A stretch of DNA of 64,000 nt from Idiomarina aquatica (lineage in GTDB: Bacteria > Pseudomonadota > Gammaproteobacteria > Enterobacterales > Alteromonadaceae), in the NCBI RefSeq assembly GCF_003987185.1, contig NZ_PIPS01000002.1, positions 186,001 through 250,000 on the forward strand, written 5' to 3'. Below the pieces are notes generated by a model. It saw nothing but the letters and a program-made list of their open reading frames with translations, made no database searches and was not told the DNA's origin. Shown here piece by piece: positions 1,155 through 41,871 of this stretch (positions are counted from its first letter, which is position 1; every line of letters begins with the position of its first letter). A program made the translations under genes and the position numbers.

Positions 1155-1784
1155 ATGAAAAAGCTGATTTTAGTCACTGCGTTGTCGTCTTTTGTGGTTG
1201 CTGGCTGTGCCAATATGAACAACACCCAGAAAGGTGCGGCCATTGGCGCGGTTGCCGGGGCATTGATTGGTAAAGGCACCGGTGACCATGATAAAAGCCG
1301 TTATTTATGGGGAGCGGCAGTTGGTGCGCTTGCCGGTAGTGCGATTGGCAACTACATGGACAAACAGGAACAAGAGTTTCGTGATGAACTTTCAGGCAGT
1401 GGTGTGCAGGTGATTCGTGAGGGTGACAATATTCGCTTGCAAATGCCTGGCAACATCACGTTTGCGACAGACAGTGCCAGTATTTCGCAAAACTTTTACC
1501 CGGTACTTAATGATGTCGCGCGCGTATTAACCAAGTATGAAAAAACCACGATGATGGTAGAAGGGCATACCGACAGCACTGGATCGGCTGAATACAATCA
1601 ACAGCTGTCGTTAAACCGCGCCATGGCGGTTCGCAATTATCTGGTAGGCAACGGTGTGGATCAACGGCGTTTAACCACCTATGGCTATGGTGAGAGTCAG
1701 CCGATTGCCGACAATAATACCGCCAGCGGACGTGAGCAGAATCGTCGCGTTGAGTTAAAAATCATCCCCAATACTCAGCAATGA
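1155..1784 (+). CDS. yiaD: OmpA-family peptidoglycan-binding lipoprotein (YiaD-like)
   Basis: A 209-aa outer-membrane lipoprotein. A lipoprotein signal peptide ends at VVAGC with the lipidated Cys18. Residues about 27-72 form a glycine-zipper segment (GAAIGAVAGALIG, GAAVGALAGSAIGNYM), which probably inserts in or packs against the membrane. Residues about 95-205 are an OmpA C-terminal domain: GHTDSTGS, NxxLSxxRA (here QQLSLNRAMAV) and NRRVEL carry the Asp and Arg that bind diaminopimelate in this family. Domain order and length match E. coli YiaD, an outer-membrane assembly suppressor protein. Its TGA overlaps the ATG of the following GNAT gene, so the two are probably translationally coupled. 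Confidence 0.88.
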   Translation: MKKLILVTALSSFVVAGCANMNNTQKGAAIGAVAGALIGKGTGDHDKSRYLWGAAVGALAGSAIGNYMDKQEQEFRDELSGSGVQVIREGDNIRLQMPGNITFATDSASISQNFYPVLNDVARVLTKYEKTTMMVEGHTDSTGSAEYNQQLSLNRAMAVRNYLVGNGVDQRRLTTYGYGESQPIADNNTASGREQNRRVELKIIPNTQQ

Positions 1785-2224
1785 CAACCATCGTAAGAGC
1801 GGCCACAGCCGGAGACCTGCATAAATTGGCACTGTATGAGCGGCAGCTTTACGGTGCCGAAGGGTATCCCGAGTTACTGTTTTATCAGGCTCTGCGGCAG
1901 TGGCCGCAGTTGCTATTGGTCGCGCAAAGCGACGATACGGTGTCCGGCTACAGCATGATGGCACCGCTGCCACAGCAACGGGCAAGCCTGATGTCGTTAT
2001 TGGTTGCCAGTGATTACCGGCAACTGGGGATTGGTCGGCTGCTGTTGTTACACAGCTTACAGGTGGCTGCTGAGCATGGGTTTGGCGAGATGGAACTGAG
2101 TGTATCGCCACAGAATGACAAAGCGATAAATCTGTACCAAAAGTCAGGCTTCGTTATCTGTGACGACGTTCCGGATTATCTTGGCCCGGGTGAACACCGT
2201 TTGATCATGCAGCGCGCTCTTTAG
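1781..2224 (+). CDS. GNAT family N-acetyltransferase
   Basis: A 147-aa single-domain acetyltransferase. The acetyl-CoA-binding motif is visible as [19 protein letters not shown] (about residues 67-85; Q/RxxGxG/A), and the C-terminal part [18 protein letters not shown] is the usual GNAT motif B. Its substrate cannot be predicted from sequence. The ATG lies in an ATGA overlap with the stop of the YiaD-like gene. Its 3' end overlaps by four bases the stop of the convergent DUF2256 gene. Confidence 0.85.
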
Positions 2225-2373
2225 CGTTGGTTTTTTCCGGAACGCTGCCGACGGCAGCGTTCGGAACAGTACTTTACGTCCTGCCAACAATCTTTCCACT
2301 TCTTGCGCCAGTTGAACGGGCGCTGACATACGCTGCAAATTTTACTTGGTAAATGAGGTTTTCGGTGCGACAT
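2221..2373 (-). CDS. DUF2256 zinc-ribbon-like mini-protein
   Basis: A 50-aa protein read from ATG at 2373 to TAA at 2221. It carries [18 protein letters not shown] and then [11 protein letters not shown]. Two CxxC/CxxxC pairs and a very basic, Trp-rich centre are the signature of DUF2256, which very often sits beside photolyase/cryptochrome genes. Its 5' end overlaps the last 32 nt of the photolyase gene in another frame, so translation is probably coupled to it. Function unknown; the four cysteines suggest a small zinc ribbon. It is easily missed because it is short and overlaps at both ends. Confidence 0.85.
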
Positions 2374-3799
2374 GGCGGGCGAGTATCCGTTGTTTGTGGG
2401 CTTTCACTTCGGCTTTTTGACGCCATGACCACAGTCGGTCACGCGCAGTTTTTGCAGCCGCTTTAAGATCAATAATGGGAGCAGGGTAATCGTTACCCAG
2501 TTCCATGCCATAGAGTTGTTGTTCCATAGGCGTTAGCTCCCAGGGCTGGTGGATAAAGGCAACCGGTAACGCATTCAACTCCGGACACCATTGTTTGATA
2601 AAGTCGCCGTCGGGGTCTTTCTCCTGCCCCTGTTTTACAGGGTTATACAAACGTATGGTATTGATGCCGGTGACCCCCGCCTGCATTTGAAACTGAGCGT
2701 AGTGAATGCCAGGTTCAAAGTCGAGAAACAGGCTGGCCAGATGCGTCACGCCGCGGCGCCAGTCGACGGCCAAGTGATGGGTGAGAAAACTGACCAGCAT
2801 GGCACGCATTCTAAAGTTAATGTATCCGGTCTGGTGCAGACAACGCATATAGGCATCGACCATGGGGATACCGGTTTGACCTGCTTGCCATGCGCGCAGG
2901 TACTCGTCGGCCTGACCACCGGTAGTCATCGGCATGTCATTGTAACCGGGGTTTAAATGCTCAAATTCCATTCGTGATTCGCTTTCAAACTTCTGGATAA
3001 AGTGGCAGTGCCAGTGCAGTCGCGACGCAAATGCGGTTAGCGTCCGCCGCCATCCCGGCCGCTGCCAGGAACGTAATACGGTATGATAAACCTGCCGTAG
3101 ACTGATATTGCCCCAAGCCAGGTAAGGGGACAATCGGGAGCAGGCATGTTGTGCACTGAGCGGGCTGGATAGTTGCCGATAATAAAACTGCCCCCGCCCC
3201 GCATAAAAGTCGTTCAGTGTTGCCCAGGCCTGGGTGGCGCCACCGTGTTGAAATCGATCATCCGGTTGTTGCCAGGCTGCCGGTAATGGGTCGGACGGAC
3301 ACTCGGAAACAAACCATTGTGCCTGCTCAAGCGGCGGGTTATCGGCTTTGGCTCGCATCACCTTGTGCCAATGCTTGTCCCAGTGTTGACGTTGGCTAAG
3401 GCCACGGATAACGGCTCCGCTGGGGGATTCGTGCCAGTCAATCTGATGGTCGTTGCACCAACGTTGGACGGCAATGTCGCGTTGATGGGTATAGCGCAGA
3501 CCGATTTCTTGATGACTGTATAACGCGTCGATAGTGGCTTCGGCATGCAAGTGCTCAAGTACGTCGATGACAGGCGCCCGCCGCACCAGCAAGCTCAGGG
3601 CAGGATGCTGGCGTTTAAGGTCAGCCAGGCTTTCGACGATAAAACGGAAATGCCGTAAACCGAGGTGTTGGTCTGCTTCCATTGCCGGTTCAAAAACGTA
3701 CAGCAATAACAACGGGTGACCGGCAGCGATGGCTTGCTGCAAGGGTTTATGATCATGTAGGCGCAAATCGCGCTTTAACCAAACAACAGATATTGGCAT
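2342..3799 (-). CDS. cryptochrome/photolyase family flavoprotein
   Basis: A 485-aa member of the photolyase/cryptochrome superfamily, which repairs UV-induced pyrimidine dimers or senses blue light. The N-terminal Rossmann-type photolyase domain begins [16 protein letters not shown]. The C-terminal FAD-binding helical domain contains [27 protein letters not shown] and [19 protein letters not shown] chose the ATG at 3799 because the protein aligns with the family from [14 protein letters not shown]; residues upstream are unlike the family. This is a different clade from the CRY-DASH at 20229-21548. Pairing with DUF2256 is typical for this clade. Whether it repairs CPDs, 6-4 products or only signals cannot be told here. 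Confidence 0.85.
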
Positions 3800-32223: not shown

Positions 32224-32352
32224 TCGATTTGTCGGTGTTTTTTTATTGTTAACGAGTATCGGCTCGTTGTAGTGCCCGATGACTTAAGTTGAAATCCGTC
32301 GATGGTGCTGATAGCCTGAAATTTCACGTGTTGCAAGCGAGTAACAAAGCGA

Positions 32353-32832
32353 ATGGTGAAATTACCCGGTATCGCTAAAAGTTTATTTCCTGTGTTAACG
32401 TTTTGTTGGGTGTTTTTGTCAGCACCGACAACTCTGGCGCAGTCACTGCAATTAGAGGGACCTTCGTCTACTGTGCGTGAGGGCTACTTCACGGTGTCCG
32501 TCGTGGCGCAGGAGCAGCGCGAGGAACCGCTTACCAATCTGGTTATCGACGTGTCGACGCAAGCCGATTTTTCCCACGTTGAGCAAACCTTTCCGGCATT
32601 GGGCGATTTTCGCAAATTGTCGTTAACCGGCTTTAGCGATGGCGTTTATTATCTGCGCGCGCGCGCCGACAACCTTGCCGAACCAAGCAATGTGATAAAA
32701 GTTACCGTACAACACTACCCGCTGTGGCAGGCGTTGGGTCTGTTTTTTACCGGATTAATCATCTTCGCCTTGCTGGTGGTGATACTGCTGAGGTCGCATC
32801 GACGGGTAGAAAAGGAGGCCGGTAATGACTGA
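32353..32832 (+). CDS. membrane protein with immunoglobulin-like ectodomain
   Basis: A 159-aa protein with a signal peptide (LFPVLTFCWVFLSAPTTLAQ, to about residue 30), a beta-rich periplasmic domain (about 32-120; LVIDVSTQADFSHVEQTF, GVYYLRARADNLAEPSN) resembling a fibronectin-III/Ig fold, a C-terminal membrane helix (LGLFFTGLIIFALLVVILL) and a short basic tail. Its 3' end overlaps the symporter start by eight bases, so they are translated together. I do not recognise a named family. It may be an accessory or sensor subunit for the symporter, which is inference. Confidence 0.7.
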   Translation: MVKLPGIAKSLFPVLTFCWVFLSAPTTLAQSLQLEGPSSTVREGYFTVSVVAQEQREEPLTNLVIDVSTQADFSHVEQTFPALGDFRKLSLTGFSDGVYYLRARADNLAEPSNVIKVTVQHYPLWQALGLFFTGLIIFALLVVILLRSHRRVEKEAGND

Positions 32833-34243
32833 ATTTGCCCTGGATACGTCGCTTGGCCTCACCATTGTCATTCTTTTTGGTGTCCTCTGGGTTGCCTTTG
32901 GCTACTGGCTCGGCCGCAAGAACAAAACCCACGAAGATTTTGCGCTGGCCGGCCGTAATGTCGGCTTTGCGTTCGCGGCGGCAACGGCGATGGCCACCTG
33001 GGTCACCAGCAACACGACGTTGGTTGCCCCTCAGCTTACCTATCAATTTGGTCTGTGGGGGATGATTGGTTATTCCTTCGCAGCACTCGGACTGTTGCTG
33101 TTTGCGCCGATGGCCAAACGCATCAAAACCTTATTGCCGAATGGCTATACCTCCGGTGATTTTGTGCGCCTGCGTTATGGTCAGGCGGCCTGGTGGGTGT
33201 TCATCATCATTTCCGTGGTTTATGCATTTGGCTGGCTCATCAGTCTGGGCATGGCCGGTGGTATTTTGCTGGAATCGCTCAGCGGTCTTGATTACCACAT
33301 CGGCATGACAGCGATATTGATCATTTGCGTCGGTTACACGTTATTTGGCGGCCTGCGAGCGGTCATCGCGACCGACTTTATTCAGGCGCTGATCATCATC
33401 GTCGGTGTCAGTCTGATTGCCTGGTGGTTGGCCGATAATGTGGGCCTGCAAAGCATTCATAGCAATCTCTCGCAGGCGCATCCGCAGTTACTGGATGTAT
33501 TGTTTCCTGCTGCTGTGATGTTTTTGTTTAACAATATCTTTTTCGGTCTGGGGGAGATATTTCATTCGAACGTCTGGTGGTCAAGGGCGTTGTCGTTTAA
33601 GCAGGGAGTGGCCTACAAAGCCTACCTGACCGGCGGGCTGATGTGGTTACCCATTCCTATCGTTACCGGATTCATCGCGTTAGCGGCACCGCAGTTGGGA
33701 ATATTCCCACCCAGTGCGGACATGATCGGACCAACCGTTGCGGCGGCGGTATTGGGTACCACCGGTGCCGTGATCGTATTTATCGTGATTTTCTCGGCGC
33801 TGGCATCGAGTCTGGATTCTTTGCTGGCAGCAACCTCAGATCTGGTCACCCAAGACTTATTCCATAAAAAATTAAAACCCAATGCCTCGGATAGAACGCT
33901 GATGCGCTTTAATCGGTATTGCATTCTGGCGCTGGGCATCGTGACCTGGCTGTTTTGTTTACCGCGTATTGCCACCCTCGGGGCGTTATTGAATTTCGCC
34001 GGTGCCTTTGTCGCCAGCACCATTTGGCCGATCGTGCTGGGCTTATATTTTCGCCGTTTAACCGGTGGCTATGCCGCACTGGCAATGGCGCTGGGTACGG
34101 CAGCCGGTCTCGCGGCCTATTTTTTGGTTGGCTTTTATGTCGCTGCGTTGACGTCCTGCGCGGTTTCCGGCCTGCTTTGTGGTGTCGGTGTGTGGCGCAG
34201 TCAGGAACAGTTTGACTGGCAGCGATTACAAGAGGAGCGTTAA
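32825..34243 (+). CDS. sodium:solute symporter (SSS) family protein
   Basis: A 472-aa transporter with about 13 membrane helices. The N-terminal LGRKNKTHEDFALAGRNVGF, the ATAMATWVTSNTTLVAPQ segment and the Na2-site helix region VFIVIFSALASSLDSLLAAT match the SSS family (PutP/PanF/OpuE relatives). It imports an organic solute with sodium; the solute cannot be read from sequence. Upstream overlap with the Ig-like protein gene and the small membrane peptide gene 2 nt downstream place it in one unit with the carbamoyltransferase and amidotransferase. Confidence 0.88.
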   Translation: MTEFALDTSLGLTIVILFGVLWVAFGYWLGRKNKTHEDFALAGRNVGFAFAAATAMATWVTSNTTLVAPQLTYQFGLWGMIGYSFAALGLLLFAPMAKRIKTLLPNGYTSGDFVRLRYGQAAWWVFIIISVVYAFGWLISLGMAGGILLESLSGLDYHIGMTAILIICVGYTLFGGLRAVIATDFIQALIIIVGVSLIAWWLADNVGLQSIHSNLSQAHPQLLDVLFPAAVMFLFNNIFFGLGEIFHSNVWWSRALSFKQGVAYKAYLTGGLMWLPIPIVTGFIALAAPQLGIFPPSADMIGPTVAAAVLGTTGAVIVFIVIFSALASSLDSLLAATSDLVTQDLFHKKLKPNASDRTLMRFNRYCILALGIVTWLFCLPRIATLGALLNFAGAFVASTIWPIVLGLYFRRLTGGYAALAMALGTAAGLAAYFLVGFYVAALTSCAVSGLLCGVGVWRSQEQFDWQRLQEER

Positions 34244-34245
34244 TC

Positions 34246-34368
34246 ATGCAACTCCCGGAACTGGCTTTTACCGTGTTGATTATTGTTGCATTGGCATTGA
34301 CCTGCTTAACGCCGATCATTTTGCTGGTGCTGTTCGTAAAAGATTATTTTTCTAAAACATTATGGTAA
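34246..34368 (+). CDS. 40-aa single-span membrane peptide
   Basis: A short gene starting at ATG 34246 with AGAGGAG ideally placed upstream. The product is MQLPELAFTVLIIVALALTC followed by more hydrophobic residues and the tail FVKDYFSKTLW. It fills the gap between the symporter (2 nt) and the carbamoyltransferase (4 nt), which supports that it is real. It resembles small accessory subunits found with some SSS and NSS transporters only in size and topology. Function unknown. Confidence 0.65.
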   Translation: MQLPELAFTVLIIVALALTCLTPIILLVLFVKDYFSKTLW

Positions 34369-34372
34369 CCCT

Positions 34373-35440
34373 ATGAACATAAAAGATGTGTCGTTTGACC
34401 GGGAACGTCCGGATGTCTGTGGCGACGCGCACCCGAAAGCACTGTTAAGAGCGATTCAGGAAGACGGTGACTACCTTTTAAAACTTGCGAATCAACACAT
34501 TGTTTCGTCCGATCAGTTTACCCAAAACGGAATGTTGCAACTGTTCCGGTTGGCGGCCAAGTATGAAGCCAACCCACGTCGTTTTAGCACGTCATTACAG
34601 GGCAAAATCCTGATTTCGGCATTCTATGAGCCGAGTACCCGCACGCGGCTGTCGTTCGAAAGTGCCTGGCACCGGCTGGGTGGCGACATCATGTCGATCA
34701 CTGATCGGTCGACAACCGGTATTGCCAAAGGGGAATGTCTGGCCGACGTGGCGGAAATGTTCAATAACTACGGTGATTGTGTGGTGCTGCGGGACAATAA
34801 TGAGAGCTCGCTCGAGGAGATGATCGATTCACTGCGAATTCCCATCATTAACGCCGGTAACGGCAGCGATGAACACCCCACGCAGGCGCTCGCAGATCTC
34901 TACGCGATGTTTAAATGGCGTCCGCAGTTAGCAACCGAGCAAGCGAGCCAGCATGCGGTGAAGATTGGGGTCATTGGTGTGCCCAATAAAATGCGCACCG
35001 TGCGCAGTCTGATCAAGTCGCTGTGCAAGTTTCCCGATGCGGTGGCCGAGTTGGTTATTATTCATGATGAAAGTGCCAGCGCGGAACTGTTTGGACAGCA
35101 ACAACGTGAGCAAATCGAACAGGCGGGGATTCGTATCCGCACCTCGAACGATCTTAATGCGGTATTACCGGAGCTGGATGTTATTTACATCAATGCCATC
35201 TCCTGGGAGGGTGAAACCTTTAATACCTACGGTACGTCGTTTGCACTGAATGCACAGTCGCCGTTAAAAGAGGGGGCGATCATTCTGCATCCACTCGCCC
35301 GTGGAGCCGAACTGAGTACGGATCTCGACCACACGCCGCACAACTGGTATTTCAGCCAGGCGCGCGGGGCTGTGTTTTTAAGAATGGCGTTACTTACGTG
35401 TATGGTACAACGCGCCGAGCGCGTTATCGATGTCGTCTAA
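34373..35440 (+). CDS. ATCase-like carbamoyltransferase of unknown acceptor
   Basis: A 355-aa protein of the aspartate/ornithine carbamoyltransferase fold, with an N-terminal extension of about 35 residues over catalytic PyrB. The carbamoyl-phosphate site is complete: STRTR (88-92), Lys119 in the loop that reaches the next subunit, Arg140, HPTQ (168-171), Arg208 and HPLAR (306-310). The position of the E. coli PyrB motif TRVQ, whose Arg229 and Gln231 bind aspartate, reads NAIS (274-277), so both residues are missing; the ornithine-specific SMG loop is also absent. It is therefore probably neither a normal ATCase nor an OTCase. It lies in one unit with a symporter and an asparagine-synthetase-like enzyme, 18 nt upstream of the latter. 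Confidence 0.85.
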   Translation: MNIKDVSFDRERPDVCGDAHPKALLRAIQEDGDYLLKLANQHIVSSDQFTQNGMLQLFRLAAKYEANPRRFSTSLQGKILISAFYEPSTRTRLSFESAWHRLGGDIMSITDRSTTGIAKGECLADVAEMFNNYGDCVVLRDNNESSLEEMIDSLRIPIINAGNGSDEHPTQALADLYAMFKWRPQLATEQASQHAVKIGVIGVPNKMRTVRSLIKSLCKFPDAVAELVIIHDESASAELFGQQQREQIEQAGIRIRTSNDLNAVLPELDVIYINAISWEGETFNTYGTSFALNAQSPLKEGAIILHPLARGAELSTDLDHTPHNWYFSQARGAVFLRMALLTCMVQRAERVIDVV

Positions 35441-35458
35441 CAAAAGGAAAAGCAAAGA

Positions 35459-37474
35459 ATGTGCGGAATTGCTGGAGTTTTTCATCATCAAACGGATCGT
35501 TCAATAGACGCCCAAACCTTAGTTAACATGGCAGCGATAATGCATCACCGTGGGCCTGATGGTTATGGTTATCAGATTAAACCAGAGCAGGGCGTAGGCT
35601 TTAGCCATGCACGTCTTTCCATTATCGACCTGAACGAACAGCGTGGTCGCCAGCCGTTTATGTCGGCAGACCAACGGTTAATGCTGACGCATAATGGGGA
35701 GTTTTATGATTTTAAACGGATTCGTGCTGATTTAACCGCACGTGGCGCACGTTTCCGCAGTAAAAGTGACTCGGAAATCGTGTTGCATCTGTTTGAACGC
35801 TACGGCCTTGATGCGACGCTGAAAGAGTTGCGTGGCGAATTTGCGTTTGGTCTGTATGACGAAAAAGATCAGAGCCTGTACCTGGTTCGCGACCGCTTTG
35901 GCATCAAACCCCTGTACTGGACAGAAACCGAACACGGCGTCGTGTTTGGTTCGGAACTTAAGGTGCTGTTCGCTCACCCGGACGTTAAGCGAGAGTTCTC
36001 CGCTGAGGGTTTGTACCATCAGTTGATTCAGGTGATGGTTCCGGGTTCGACCGCCTTTGCCGGTATTAATCAAGTGCAGCCGGGCTATGTGGTCAAGGTA
36101 AAACGTGAGCATGGTCGTCTTACGGTCAGCGAACACAAATATTGGGACGTTAACTTTCCCAATGAACACGATTATCCGGGCGACGATGTCGACGAAGAAC
36201 AATACATCGAGGGCGTTCGTGCGCAGTTACTGGAGGCGGTACAACACCGTATGACCGCGGATGTACCGGTGGGTTGTTACTTGTCCGGCGGCATCGACTC
36301 CTGCTCAATTCTCGGTTTGGCCTCGGCGTCAACGCAGACCTCCGTGAAAGCCTTTACCATTGGTTTTGATTCTGACGACTATGATGAAACACCGATAGCA
36401 CGGGAAATGGCAGAGGCCACCCAGGCAGACCATCATATTATGGCGTTGAAAGCCAACGACCTGTATGACCACTTTGTAAAAACCTTGTGGCACACGGAGC
36501 GAACCATCTATAACACCCTCGGGGTGGCCAAGTACCTGATGAGCCAGCAGGTGCACGAAGCCGGTTATAAGGTCGTAATGACAGGCGAGGGCTCCGATGA
36601 GCTGTTTGCCGGCTATCCGGCGTTCCGCAAGGATATGTTCTTGCACGGGTTGGATCATCTGCCGGAAATTGAACGACTGGAATGGCAGCAATTGCTGGAG
36701 AAGAACAATAAGTTGTTTAAAGGAGCGATGCTGGCAAGGGAAGAGTTCGTCAGCGAAGCCTTTAACCAAAAAATGGGCTTTACCCCAAGCTGTGTGCAGC
36801 CATGGTTGTCATGCAGCAGTGTCGCCTTGCCATTGATGTCAGCTGAACTGCGGGAGCGGGTGACGGATTATGACCCGAGTAAGGCGATTGCGGATACCCT
36901 GGATGAGACCATGCTGGAGGGGCGGCATCCATTGGATCGCGCACAATACGTGTGGATAAAAACCATGCTTGAAGGACAAATCCTCACCTGGGGTGGTGAC
37001 CGCGTTGATATGGCTAACTCGATGGAGGCGCGGCCGGCGTTTTTGGACCATCACTTGGCAGAGTACGCATTTACTGTACCGCCGCATCTGCGTATTAAAG
37101 GTAATAAAGAAAAATACGTATTGCGGGAGGCCATGAAAGGCTTATTACCGGAAACGCTCTACAAACGTGAGAAGTTTGCCTTTATGGCTCCGCCGGCGCA
37201 TACCGATCCGGAAAAATGGAAAGCGGTTGAAAAACTGGCGGAACAGTTCTTAAATCAGCGCGCGGTAGAAGCCGCCGGTTTATTGGATTACGAGGAAGTG
37301 GTACGAACCTTTGAACGCCATCAGGATCCGAATGTACCGGCCGAAGAACAAGTACAATTGGATGCGGTGATTAATCACATGCTGGGTGTACAGGTGCTGC
37401 ACCACCATTTCGTCGCAACCGATGTGCCGCAACAAGCGGCACAAAGGGCAAAAGAGCTGGGCTGGGTTGCCTAA
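35459..37474 (+). CDS. asparagine-synthetase-like glutamine-dependent amidotransferase
   Basis: A 671-aa class-II glutamine amidotransferase fused to an AMP-forming synthetase domain. The N-terminal nucleophile is Cys2 (MCGIAGVF); [23 protein letters not shown] and SDSEIVLH complete the glutaminase site. The synthetase half has the PP-loop YLSGGIDS (about 275-282), [11 protein letters not shown] and [14 protein letters not shown] (about 376). It is longer than AsnB (about 550 aa) and resembles the branch that amidates substrates other than aspartate, such as the enzyme of N-acetylglutaminylglutamine amide synthesis. A carbamoyltransferase precedes it by 18 nt. The substrate carboxylate is unknown. 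Its end overlaps the convergent msrAB stop by four bases. Confidence 0.88.
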
Positions 37475-38613
37475 CGCTGACCGTTTTTCGGTTCTACGTA
37501 CTGAATAAAGTCCGCATAGCCGCGTTGTTTCATTTCCGCCAGTGGAATGAATTCCAACGCGGCCGAGTTCATGCAGTAGCGTAAGCCGGTCGGCTGCGGA
37601 CCATCCTCGAAAACATGCCCTAGATGGGAGTCGGCGTAGCGGCTACGCACCTCGGTACGGGTGAAAAACCAGCTGTTGTCTTCTTTTTCAACCACGGCGT
37701 CGGCTTGTATCGGTTGCGTAAAGCTCGGCCAGCCGGTGCCGGACTTGTATTTATGTCGTGATGAAAATAAGGGCTCACCACTGACGACATCGACGTAAAT
37801 GCCTGGCTTTTTGTTATCCCAGTAGCGGTTATTAAAGGGTTCCTCCGTTTCATCCTGCTGTGTTACCGCAAACTCAATGGCACTGAGTTGTTGCCGTAAC
37901 TGCTGTTTGGAAGGCTTGTTGAACGACTGCCAGGGGTATTGGGTATCGGTTGACGGCTCACCGCCCGGGTTGTCATTGCTAAAGCCATAGTAATCGACCT
38001 GAGGCGTGTCACCCCAGTGTTTCTCGACAAAATCATAGCGGCCTGAGTTATAGGTGTAGACTTTATAGCGGATCGGGTTTTTATCGTAATAATCCTGGTG
38101 ATAGGTTTCGGCACGATAAAACTGCGTAAAGTCGGTGATTGGAACCACAATCGGTTGTGAAAAGGGCCCGTTTTCACTCAACCACTGCTTAGACTGTTCA
38201 GCGACCCGGCGTTGTTCGTCATTATGTACAAAAATTTCCGGACGGTACTGCTTGCCTCGGTCGACAAACTGGCCGTCGGCGTCGGTCGGATCCATGATTC
38301 GCCAGAATTTTTGCAGTAAACCGGCGTAACTGATGACCTTGGGATCGTAGTAAATTTGCACTGCTTCGGTGTGACCTGTGTTGCCGGCGGAAACCTGTTC
38401 ATAACTCGGATTGGGTTCTGTGCCTCCGGTATACCCTGAAACCACCTCGCGGACACCGTCAAGTTGCTCAAAGGCCTCTTCGACACACCAAAAGCAACCG
38501 CCTGCCAGTGTCGCCACGGCCTCGTTTTGTTGCTTTTCTGTTGACGAATTTTGTGCGATGCTGAGAGTGCTGGTCAGCAGCAAGCAAAAGCCTAACATTA
38601 TGGTGAAGCGCAT
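37471..38613 (-). CDS. msrAB: bifunctional peptide methionine sulfoxide reductase MsrA/MsrB
   Basis: A 380-aa secreted fusion enzyme. A signal peptide (residues about 1-20, [19 protein letters not shown]) directs it to the periplasm. The MsrA domain has the catalytic [11 protein letters not shown], and the MsrB domain has [13 protein letters not shown] and [11 protein letters not shown] with the catalytic Cys. MsrB lacks the zinc-binding CxxC pairs, like many fused forms. It repairs both S- and R-methionine sulfoxide in exported proteins. ATG 38613 is chosen for its GGAGG ribosome site; upstream in-frame residues do not fit. It is divergent from the barrel gene at 38661. Confidence 0.92.
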
Positions 38614-38660
38614 ATAACCTCCAGATGACATGGCTGCTAATAGCTTATAGGTGGGATTGG

Positions 38661-39686
38661 GTGAAAAAGTTCTCTGCATTGGCTATTTATTTATTAACCG
38701 CTGCGCCGGTGGTGGCGCAGGAGGCTGACGCGCAGACTTCTAAGGCGGTGGAAAAAGCCTGGTACGACAGCTTTCGTGAGGGGCTGACCACCTCCGTTGA
38801 TGCCACAGCCCGCTGGGTAGACAGTTTTTTTGCGGAAGATCGGTTTGAAGAATCTTATGGTTCCTATGGGCGCTTATCAATAGCGCCGCAGTGGAGCGGT
38901 TATGACGGCTTCGAGGTTAAATCACGTTTTCGGGCGCGAGTTAATCTCCCACACGCGAAAGAGCAGTTCTCGGCGTTTATCGGTCGTGTCGACAGTGATG
39001 AATTTCTGGATGAAGGTTCCGCCGGCCGGCCGTCAATCATTCGCTCTCCCAGCTCGGATGAAGAATGGCTGGTGGGGCTGGGATTTGAGCCCAGCATGAA
39101 TGAGCAACACCGGGTTTCCTACAGCATTGGCGTTCGCGGCGGGCTTGATTTCGATACTTATGTACGCGGTCGTTATATGACCGATATGGTGTTGAGTGAA
39201 TCGGTTTTGGCGCGCTTCCAAAGCTCTGCGTTTTGGCGTGACAGCGATGGCTTCGGCGTTGCCCAACGCGTCGATCTGGAAGCCAGCTTAACCGAAACGG
39301 TGTTGGCGCGCTGGTCGTCACTGGGCACTTACGCACAAGAAACTGAGGGACTGCGCTGGAGTAGCACCCTACGCGCCTATAAGCTCTACGGTGAAGATAA
39401 AGCCATTGCCGTGGAGACCTGGGTGGAGGGGCAAACGGATTTTGCCGTACCGGTAAACGACTATGGTCTGCGGTTACTTAACCGGCAACGCTACCTGCGC
39501 GAATGGTTATTTGTGGAAACCTGGCTGGGTTACCACTGGCCCCGCGAGCAATTGTATGAGCAACGCGAGGGCCATTGGATGCTGGGGCTGGAGCTGGAAA
39601 TTCACTTTGGCACGACCAACGCCTATTTGCCACAGCGGTCTCAATCGTCTTCCGACCAGGATAAGTCCAATAACAAGGGGTCATGA
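38661..39686 (+). CDS. predicted outer-membrane beta-barrel protein
   Basis: A 341-aa exported protein of no family I can name. The GTG at 38661 begins [20 protein letters not shown], a good signal peptide, with GGTGGGA upstream. After a short helical region ([19 protein letters not shown]) the sequence alternates like barrel strands ([66 protein letters not shown]). It ends in a Ser/Asp/Asn-rich tail, not Phe. The last 46 nt overlap the convergent nuclease gene. Confidence 0.6.
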
Positions 39687-41389
39687 TCCGACGAGCGGTA
39701 GGGACCCGGCTGATAATAATCCGCGTCCCGGTAATCGTAACTGACCGGTTCATCAGCATTAAAATTAACATGCTGAGTATGGCTGACTTTGGGCACCAGT
39801 GATTGGTGCACAAAAATATGATCCAACGAACCTGCCTGACTGTCGTAGACGTAGGAGTATTCTTTTGCGTCCGACACATTGGGGTAGCCGTTTTCAATAA
39901 AGTACTGAATCGGATCTTCCTGATAATAGGCGTTAAAATCGCCCAGTAGCACTGGGTTCGGTAGTTGTTGTTGTTCGATCCAGCTTAGCAATTCCTGAGC
40001 GGACTCTACGCGCAACGCATTCCAGCAAGCTTGGCCATCGTTCTGATTCGCATTAATACCGTCATCGGGACAGCTGCCTTTGGATTTAAAATGATTCACT
40101 ACCACGGTTAATGGCTGCTCAACACCCTCTACCTTAAAGGTCTGCGCTAATGGCACCCGGCTACCGCGGCGAAATGGCCCTTGTTCAAGCGTTGCGGCGT
40201 GTGATACCGGGGTTAGCCGTTGTGGATTGTAAATGATGCCTACACTGATCTGGTCAGTGCCAACGCGGGTGGAGCGGGGCTGGGCAATGGCATAATCGAT
40301 ACGGCTGGCGTCGTTAATCGCATCAACCAGTTCGCGGATGGCACTGTGCTGTTCAAAACCATCGTTTTCAACTTCCATCAGACCAACCACATCGGCCTTA
40401 AGCGCTGTAATGGCGGCAACCAGCTTATCCTGCTGGCGTTGCAATTGCGCCGGAGAGCGCGCACCCCGCTCGGTCGGAAAGCCGTTGCCCTGACCATCGC
40501 CATTAAAGTAGTTGAGCACATTAAAACTGGCGATGCGGATATTATCGCTGAGTTTGGGCACAATCGCGGTGATTTGTGAGCGTTGGTCAAGTTGTGGGGC
40601 GGTGGTAGGTTGGAGGCGATAATCGTCACGAAATTGCGACAATATACCGGTGACCGGCTTTATTGTAGCGCCACTGCGAAGACTGTTCTGAGGGCCATGA
40701 AACAGCTGTTGGTGTGGCAGCTGCTGTGGCTGTGTCTGGCTATTGTCGTCAATCTGTAGACGATTCAGCTGATTGCTTTTGGCCAAGGCCTGCGCCGCAG
40801 CCCCGGGTTCCGCGATCTGGGTTGGTGTCCATAAACGGCCGGCTGAGACATCAAAATAACCGTGACGGGCCAATGGGTAATGGCCGGATATCGTTAAGGG
40901 TTGGTCGGCGCTAATGGTCACTAACATCCCTTCGTGGGCTTCAGCCTGTTGCTCGCTGGTAAACGGCAATGTCAGTTCGACTGGGCTAACGGCCTCCGCC
41001 TGGCCACATTCAAACACCGCCGTGGTATTGGTTAGCATGGTAAGACCGTCGGTTTCATTGACAGTACCGGTCACTTTCAACAGCGTACCTGCTTTAATGT
41101 CTTGATAAACCTTACCTGAGGCCTTGATAAACAACCCTTCGGAAGTGTTGCTGTCATTGTCCTGTTGCTGTTGCGTGGATTGTAAAAACAGTCCGCCAAG
41201 TTGCTCCTTGGCGCTCCAGTTTTGAGTAACCACGCCAATGGTCGTTATTTGCTCACCGAGTTTGGGTGATTGGGTTGCCGAGCCTTGAATCTGTGCAATA
41301 GGTGTCAGTCCGGCATCGGAGTCGCAGTTTTGTGCCGCGCCGGGTAGGGCGAAGAAAAGTGCCGAGAGCGACAGAAGCGTTTTTTTCAT
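39641..41389 (-). CDS. ExeM/NucH-family extracellular endonuclease
   Basis: A 582-aa secreted nuclease. The signal peptide is MKKTLLSLSALFFALPGAAQ. Residues about 30-270 are OB-like repeats (GEQITTIGVVTQNW, LLKVTGTVNE), and residues about 285-582 form an endonuclease/exonuclease/phosphatase domain: IRIASFNVLNYF, ADVVGLMEVENDG, VVVNHFKSKGSC, VLLGDFNAY and [13 protein letters not shown] carry the metal and catalytic residues. Such enzymes degrade extracellular DNA, for phosphate recovery or biofilm dispersal. The stop of the upstream MarR gene overlaps its ATG by four bases, so the two are coupled. Confidence 0.88.
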   Translation of the reverse strand: MKKTLLSLSALFFALPGAAQNCDSDAGLTPIAQIQGSATQSPKLGEQITTIGVVTQNWSAKEQLGGLFLQSTQQQQDNDSNTSEGLFIKASGKVYQDIKAGTLLKVTGTVNETDGLTMLTNTTAVFECGQAEAVSPVELTLPFTSEQQAEAHEGMLVTISADQPLTISGHYPLARHGYFDVSAGRLWTPTQIAEPGAAAQALAKSNQLNRLQIDDNSQTQPQQLPHQQLFHGPQNSLRSGATIKPVTGILSQFRDDYRLQPTTAPQLDQRSQITAIVPKLSDNIRIASFNVLNYFNGDGQGNGFPTERGARSPAQLQRQQDKLVAAITALKADVVGLMEVENDGFEQHSAIRELVDAINDASRIDYAIAQPRSTRVGTDQISVGIIYNPQRLTPVSHAATLEQGPFRRGSRVPLAQTFKVEGVEQPLTVVVNHFKSKGSCPDDGINANQNDGQACWNALRVESAQELLSWIEQQQLPNPVLLGDFNAYYQEDPIQYFIENGYPNVSDAKEYSYVYDSQAGSLDHIFVHQSLVPKVSHTQHVNFNADEPVSYDYRDADYYQPGPYRSSDHDPLLLDLSWSEDD

Positions 41390-41871
41390 TTTCCTGATTC
41401 CATTTTATGATAACTGCCCACTTCAAGTACCGGGGCGGCGTCCAAACGTTCAGCGTCCATCATTGCCGCAATGCGCTGCATTGATGACAACAACAATGAC
41501 TGTTCCCAGTCATCGAGTGCTTGAAACTTTTCGATGAAGTCTTCCTGTAACGGCTGCGGTGCTTTGTTCAGCAGTGAGCGTCCTTCCTCAGTCAGATAAA
41601 GCAGCACCCGGCGTTTATCGGTGTGACTGCGGCGACGATGAATGAGTTGCCGGTGCTCCATCCGTTCGATGACATTGGAAACGGTTGCCGGGCTCAGGGT
41701 GATGTTCTGAGCCACTTCGCTGGCCGTTATGCCATCACGGGCAACAATCTCGCGCAAGATCAGCAACTGTGGTGCCGTTAAACCGGAGTATTTGTTTAAT
41801 TGTTTGGAATACAGATCGATGGCACGAATGACCTTGCGTAAGGCCAGTAGCAGCTCTTCGTACTTTTCCAT
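41386..41871 (-). CDS. MarR family transcriptional regulator
   Basis: A 161-aa winged-helix regulator. The HTH lies around DGITASEVAQNITLSPATVSNVIERMEHRQ-type sequence (residues about 45-80) and the wing follows with RRRSHTDKRRVLLYLTEEG (DxR motif, DKRRV). The flanking helices form the MarR dimer. It is immediately upstream of and overlapping the ExeM-type nuclease, which it may regulate; the effector is unknown. Confidence 0.85.
   Translation of the reverse strand: MEKYEELLLALRKVIRAIDLYSKQLNKYSGLTAPQLLILREIVARDGITASEVAQNITLSPATVSNVIERMEHRQLIHRRRSHTDKRRVLLYLTEEGRSLLNKAPQPLQEDFIEKFQALDDWEQSLLLSSMQRIAAMMDAERLDAAPVLEVGSYHKMESGK

Follow-up and report, generated by a model that had tools for sequence, protein, structure and literature searches.

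The window analysed here is a stretch of 64,000 nucleotides (nt) from Idiomarina aquatica, and it carries a unit of five open reading frames, all on the plus strand, at 32353-37474. They code for a small membrane protein with an immunoglobulin (Ig)-like fold, a sodium:solute symporter (SSS), a membrane peptide of 40 amino acids (aa), a carbamoyltransferase (CT), and an AsnB-like amidotransferase (Table 1). A preliminary description of the window had reported five tightly packed plus-strand genes, and all of them were found in place. A Pfam scan assigned the symporter to PF00474, CT to PF02729 and PF00185, and the amidotransferase to the GATase (PF13537/PF13522) and Asn_synthase (PF00733) families. 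The symporter stayed under every NCBIfam cut-off, the 40-aa peptide matched no family in the Pfam scan, and the 159-aa protein matched no Pfam or NCBIfam family. The AlphaFold2 (AF2) model of the 159-aa protein (predicted local distance difference test, pLDDT, 89.1) consists of seven strands and a C-terminal helix at residues 124-157, and Foldseek matched it modestly to Ig and fibronectin-III (FN3) domains (E 3.9e-5 to 1e-3), which agrees with its earlier label of an Ig-like membrane protein. The five-gene order is more than chance and recurs in other genera, in other families, and in one other phylum. Our results suggest that the product of the unit is probably an N-carbamoyl amino acid amide, with N-carbamoyl-glutamine amide (CGA) as the likeliest candidate, and the remaining doubt mainly concerns the exact amino acid and the physiological role.

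Table 1. Features of the five-gene unit and its possible control elements in the window.
Feature	Coordinates	Strand	Basis and remarks
Promoter-like box TTGAAA-N17-TAGCCT	32289..32317	+	5' of the unit; conserved columns in aligned Idiomarina-group regions
Ig/FN3-like protein with C-terminal membrane helix, 159 aa	32353..32832	+	AF2 and Foldseek; homologues of 21-48% identity in 15 aligned loci
Sodium:solute symporter (SSS), 472 aa	32825..34243	+	PF00474; 8-nt overlap with the preceding gene
40-aa membrane peptide	34246..34368	+	Gap of 2 nt; homologue in 36/57 full-flank loci
Carbamoyltransferase (CT), 355 aa, proposed L-glutamine alpha-N-carbamoyltransferase	34373..35440	+	Gap of 4 nt; PF02729/PF00185, residues, AF2, fold
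AsnB-like amidotransferase, 671 aa, proposed N-carbamoylglutamine 1-amide synthetase	35459..37474	+	Gap of 18 nt; PF13537 and PF00733, acceptor motif
EctR/CosR-type MarR regulator that may control the unit	41386..41871	-	3.9 kb downstream; matches ectA-linked MarR genes

CT belongs to the aspartate and ornithine carbamoyltransferase (ATCase/OTCase) superfamily, with scores above the Pfam cut-offs for both PF02729 (137.2 bits) and PF00185 (44.9 bits). Its score against the NCBIfam model for PyrB, TIGR00670, is 198.7 bits, below the cut-off of 236.95. With the AF2 model of CT (pLDDT 87.4), the best Foldseek match was E. coli ATCase, and the match to 3mpu had a template modelling score of 0.88 by target length at 31% identity. 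We aligned 110 distinct CT sequences, with some species entered twice, to E. coli PyrB. Residues S52, T53, R54, T55, K84, R105, H134, R167, and T168 were kept in all 110 and Q137 in 109, and S80 was replaced by G throughout. R229 was kept in none of them (A in 78, S in 26, T in 5, and K in 1), nor was Q231 (A in 85, S in 23, V in 1, and L in 1). R-x-Q is retained at these positions in six PyrB proteins, of which one is from the window genome and five are from other genomes with a CT. In ATCase crystal structures, R167 binds the alpha-carboxylate of aspartate and R229/Q231 bind its beta-carboxylate. Because R167 is kept and R229/Q231 are lost, CT is expected to act on the alpha-amine of an amino acid whose side chain is uncharged, such as glutamine. 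The pocket signature N274, A/S/T/K275, I276, and W278 was nearly uniform across the 110 sequences. CT has the fold, the carbamoyl-phosphate site, and R167 in common with PyrB, but it differs in the loss of R229/Q231 and in its family score, and the window genome (2.97 Mb) has a separate PyrB (34% identity) together with another carbamoyltransferase-type match (30%). The enzyme had been described as an odd carbamoyltransferase, and both its residues and its family score place it outside PyrB.

The N-terminal Cys typical of class II amidotransferases is conserved in the AsnB-like protein, as is the SGGxDS loop. The protein scored 453.6 bits against TIGR01536 (asparagine synthase; cut-off 267.1); this model seems to cover other AsnB-type amidotransferases as well. 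The acceptor motif HxER(T/S)IYNTL was present in all 73 distinct homologues. Residues T322 and R325 of E. coli AsnB belong to its aspartate site. The window protein has N and G at these positions, and its homologues have N in 73/73 and G in 66 or A in 7. The AsnO proteins of N-acetylglutaminylglutamine amide (NAGGN) synthesis read EPMV(S/A/G)(H/Q)D at the acceptor motif, unlike HxER(T/S)IYNTL, in six of the eight sequences compared, the two without residues at the motifs being dropped. An AsnO identity was ruled out by this motif and by the score against TIGR03104, the NAGGN amidotransferase model (306.5 bits; cut-off 570.1). The window genome has AsnA, and no second AsnB-type gene was found in it at E <= 1e-60, so asparagine need not depend on the AsnB-like gene. 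These results bear on the explanation that CT and the AsnB-like protein are housekeeping paralogues, a second ATCase and an asparagine synthetase that became neighbours by accident. The TIGR01536 score and the closest fold, which is that of ATCase, would fit such an origin. However, PyrB and AsnA are encoded separately, R229/Q231 are lost in every CT, the acceptor motif is unlike those of both AsnO and E. coli AsnB, and the CT-AsnB pair is kept across families and in one other phylum. We therefore reject this explanation as highly improbable on the residues, the separate PyrB and AsnA, and the conserved pairing.

CGA was reported in 1991 in Ectothiorhodospira marismortui, also known as E. mobilis (PMC1224877), which is listed as DSM 4180T (PMC7824335), and passages of these reviews list CGA as an osmotic solute (PMC7824335, PMC1224877). 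The genome of E. mobilis DSM 4180, and hence the reported producer species, carries the CT-AsnB pair, with a CT that matches our scan query at 100%; its three carbamoyltransferase-type matches (E <= 1e-5) are CT, a PyrB, and an OTC-type protein. The strain of the 1991 study was reportedly DSM 4180 itself. The query came from one of two CT-bearing genomes among 27 with photosynthetic reaction-centre genes and was chosen in the hope of meeting Ectothiorhodospira, so this outcome was not blind; the gene itself came from a class-wide sample drawn regardless of it. A search for the gene pair across genomes had been proposed in the preliminary description, and it found the pair in all 8 Ectothiorhodospira loci among the matches listed, DSM 4180 included, as well as in other groups that live in saline or soda habitats. 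The CT of the window is about 60% identical to that of Ectothiorhodospira, and its specificity could have shifted over this distance, the pocket being defined by sequence only. The same chemistry might then act in the window's lineage on another neutral amino acid, for example asparagine, and yield a related ureido-amide osmolyte. We regard this as unlikely, since the nearly uniform pocket signature argues for one substrate and the CGA producer falls within the 110-sequence set.

The neighbourhood of CT was compared in at least 80 loci from a scan of named genomes, and all locus counts refer to the loci listed. In 71 of the loci, the DNA extended 2.5 kb or more downstream of CT, and 70 of these have an AsnB-like gene alongside CT; the remaining nine loci had less DNA there. 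The sole locus without it belongs to Thiorhodospira sibirica, whose genome holds AsnB (65%) and, preceded by an Ig-like gene, an M20 hydrolase (76%) away from the CT locus. In the 57 full-flank loci, with more than 9 kb on each side, AsnB was found in 56, the symporter in 47, the M20 hydrolase in 41, an isochorismatase-like gene in 36, the 40-aa peptide in 36, and the Ig-like protein in 31, the last two counts being lower bounds because both proteins evolve fast. Five of the 41 M20 matches (three in Kangiella, one in Aliikangiella, and one in a metagenome-assembled genome, MAG) are of a more distant kind, 44-50% identical to the Ectothiorhodospira protein. By genus, the listed loci belong to Thioalkalivibrio (19), Ectothiorhodospira (8), Idiomarina (7), Aliidiomarina (4), Kangiella, Pseudidiomarina, and Thiogranum (3 each), and Thiorhodospira, Thiohalobacter, Thiohalophilus, Aliikangiella, Pleionea, and Tenderia (1 each); 7 are in Spirochaetota MAGs and 20 carry no genus name. 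The named genera are marine, halophilic, or haloalkaliphilic. Two loci (L098 and L106) come from MAGs whose names identify them as gammaproteobacterial symbionts of the clam Ctena orbiculata; both hold the CT operon with M20 and isochorismatase-like genes.

CT was present in all 18 same-genus relatives searched (79-90% identity) and in 2 of 17 genomes from the remainder of the window's family (71-72%). A class-wide sample of 369 genomes contained CT in 22 besides the window's own (56-65%), and two further genomes had a divergent relative only (38-39%). Among the 398 genomes of a phylum-wide sample, one besides the window's own has CT (45%). The order of E. mobilis DSM 4180 carries CT in 41 of 47 genomes and in all 38 of those of good quality. 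One member of this order (G810:C1:1194650-1195402) matched only CT residues 102-354 in a 302-aa open frame, a shortened or broken copy. Plasmid carriage of CT was considered and rejected: in 72,556 plasmid records all matches at E <= 1e-30 were below 60% identity, and the best 10 of 46 were at 32-35%, five of these ten being named and all five annotated pyrB. Divergent CT-like proteins, 37-39% identical to the window CT, are encoded in L045, L046, and L047 (about 1492-2694, minus strand). They are probably not carbamoyltransferases, because most of the carbamoyl-phosphate motif (STRTR/K84/H134) is altered, and no AsnB gene was found beside them in their short flanks. In a quick tree they grouped with CT, apart from PyrB and OTC, with a support of 98 in the Shimodaira-Hasegawa-like approximate likelihood ratio test (SH-aLRT), although long branches are present; the separation of CT as a single clade from this divergent group had low support (SH-aLRT 10).

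Upstream of the unit, the columns TTG ... TGnTA ... T of the promoter-like box were invariant in 13/13 aligned Idiomarina-group regions (the window and 12 loci), the full hexamers varying; a simple promoter scan did not report the box. The MarR regulator downstream of the unit has relatives next to ectoine genes: among 30 fetched ectA loci, 14 have a matching MarR gene no more than 1.5 kb from ectA, and nine of these matches are at 48-51% identity. As described in a passage of PMC7876524, EctR1, and CosR, which is 51% identical to EctR1, are repressors of ectoine genes. No EctA above the cut-off was found in the window genome (best score 27.7 vs 120.6 bits), so the MarR regulator has no evident ectoine operon to serve. 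Judging from these similarities, it is possible that it controls the unit. Directly after the unit, a gene at 37471-38679 on the minus strand reads as a fused methionine sulfoxide reductase MsrAB; it is convergent with the AsnB-like gene and overlaps it by 4 nt at its stop.

Sister operons contain enzymes of a type that could reverse the two reactions. In Ectothiorhodospira, genes for an M20 hydrolase and an isochorismatase-like protein immediately precede CT on the same strand; in Thiohalophilus and Thioalkalivibrio, both are found 5' of the symporter gene; and the spirochaete loci that extend far enough have them between CT and AsnB. Three of the operon M20 proteins pass TIGR01879, the hydantoinase/carbamoylase model that includes N-carbamoyl-amino-acid hydrolases (370-392 vs 204 bits). 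The isochorismatase-like proteins are closest to biuret amidohydrolase but far under its cut-off. To break down CGA, a cell would require an amidase and a carbamoylase, and the assignment of the two proteins to these roles is inferred. Such genes also bear on the idea that CGA or a similar compound is mainly a nitrogen store, a glutamine derivative with four nitrogens that would be synthesized when nitrogen is in excess and degraded by amidase and carbamoylase. Their frequency in full-flank loci (M20 in 41/57, isochorismatase-like in 36/57) is in favor of a store. So is the gene of a PII nitrogen regulator (PF00543) in the spirochaete locus L111, the sole locus examined for PII, where it occupies L111:7178-7537 and ends one base before the Ig-like gene, which may point to control by nitrogen or glutamine. 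However, the breakdown genes are absent from the window's unit, the MarR regulator there is of the EctR type and MarR genes lie near many loci, and the reviews cited above list CGA as an osmotic solute. A role mainly in nitrogen storage is thus improbable.

Taken together, these data suggest a pathway of two steps for CGA. CT would carbamoylate L-glutamine at its alpha-amino group, with carbamoyl phosphate as the donor, and the AsnB-like enzyme, with ATP and glutamine, would then convert the alpha-carboxylate into a carboxamide, so that both of these charges of glutamine would be masked. Together with its two small membrane partners, the symporter might import CGA or a related solute. In other lineages, the isochorismatase-like amidase and the M20 N-carbamoyl-amino-acid hydrolase of the same cluster would undo both steps, and MarR regulators, of EctR/CosR type in the window, would switch the unit by salinity. 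The link to CGA had been put forward in the preliminary description, and the strain link, the active-site residues, the reversal-type enzymes of sister operons, and the EctR-type regulator now lend it support as far as sequence comparison reaches. Several observations weigh against this proposal. Glutamine as the acceptor of CT is deduced from the strain link and from a side-chain pocket judged lost by sequence. The top family of the M20 proteins is NF006771, 'allantoate amidohydrolase' (530-536 bits; cut-off 399), and they scored 391-393 bits against ErtE, an N-carbamyl-L-glutamate amidohydrolase, below its cut-off of 520. M20 and isochorismatase-like genes were not found at the locus of the window's unit, and an M20 homologue (46%) lies elsewhere in the window genome, beside ahp-type genes. 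MarR genes were found in 35 of the 57 full-flank loci, 27 of them less than 1 kb from a component, and the operon MarR proteins of Ectothiorhodospira and Thioalkalivibrio belong to another branch, 27-36% identical to the EctR type. Of the 22 genomes with CT in the class sample, at least 13 have a NAGGN amidotransferase over the cut-off, and one (G186) has EctA; therefore, the unit often stands beside other solute systems, and in these genomes the main solute could be another than CGA. The M20 homologue of the window genome is located at L129:7582-8889 (G000:C1 about 1471581-1472888), just downstream of genes resembling ahpC and ahpD, and the I. abyssalis genome has an M20 homologue in the same ahpC/ahpD-like neighbourhood.

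On balance, we lean towards the view that these genes are the complete set for a further widespread compatible solute derived from an amino acid, in addition to ectoine, glycine betaine, and NAGGN, with a glutamine transcarbamoylase, a dedicated amidotransferase, import, breakdown, and ectoine-type regulation. CGA would then serve the Idiomarina group as its main self-made osmolyte and would be a core trait of Ectothiorhodospira and Thioalkalivibrio, shared with spirochaetes. We found no description of a gene for glutamine transcarbamoylase activity in the open-access literature. If correct, this view would fill gaps that genome papers on Pseudidiomarina and Thiorhodospira have pointed out: the unit is present at three loci (L099, L118, and L125) of Pseudidiomarina members other than P. 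terrestris, and the Thiorhodospira sibirica genome has the CT, AsnB, and M20 genes. The two-gene candidate makes the genetic basis of CGA directly testable. With this gene family, CGA producers could be predicted from marine and soda-lake metagenomes, in which the genes probably carry pyrB and asnB annotations. Public low- and high-salt RNA-seq data exist for Thioalkalivibrio versutus D301 (PRJNA812740; PMC9062515), and the text of that paper mentions neither asparagine, carbamoyl, amidotransferase, nor symporter.

The plan of the unit resembles that of known solute systems. As outlined in part of PMC8070244, the NAGGN operon of P. aeruginosa encodes a MarR repressor, an AsnB-type amidotransferase, an N-capping enzyme, and a hydrolase, and its product is an osmoprotectant. 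The NAGGN amidotransferase had been named as a precedent for the window's enzyme. The NAGGN system (asnO-ngg; PA3458-PA3461) is similar in forming an AsnB-type carboxamide on glutamine and in having an N-cap enzyme, a hydrolase, and MarR. It differs in its N-cap, which is an acetyl group and a second glutamine added via Ngg and not the product of a carbamoyltransferase, in the score and acceptor motif of the amidotransferase, and in the symporter, which is added in the window's unit. A NAGGN amidotransferase above the cut-off was found in 123 of 274 class genomes, and none was found in the window genome at E <= 1e-100. Ectoine operons with EctR1/CosR likewise have a MarR regulator of this type close to solute genes, whereas their solute chemistry and enzymes are unrelated, and EctA over the cut-off is absent from the window genome. 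For CGA as a metabolite, we found no description of genes or enzymes in the open-access literature, most subscription journals being outside its scope. The two proposed enzymes are those that the structure of CGA calls for, and the listed type strain has both genes.

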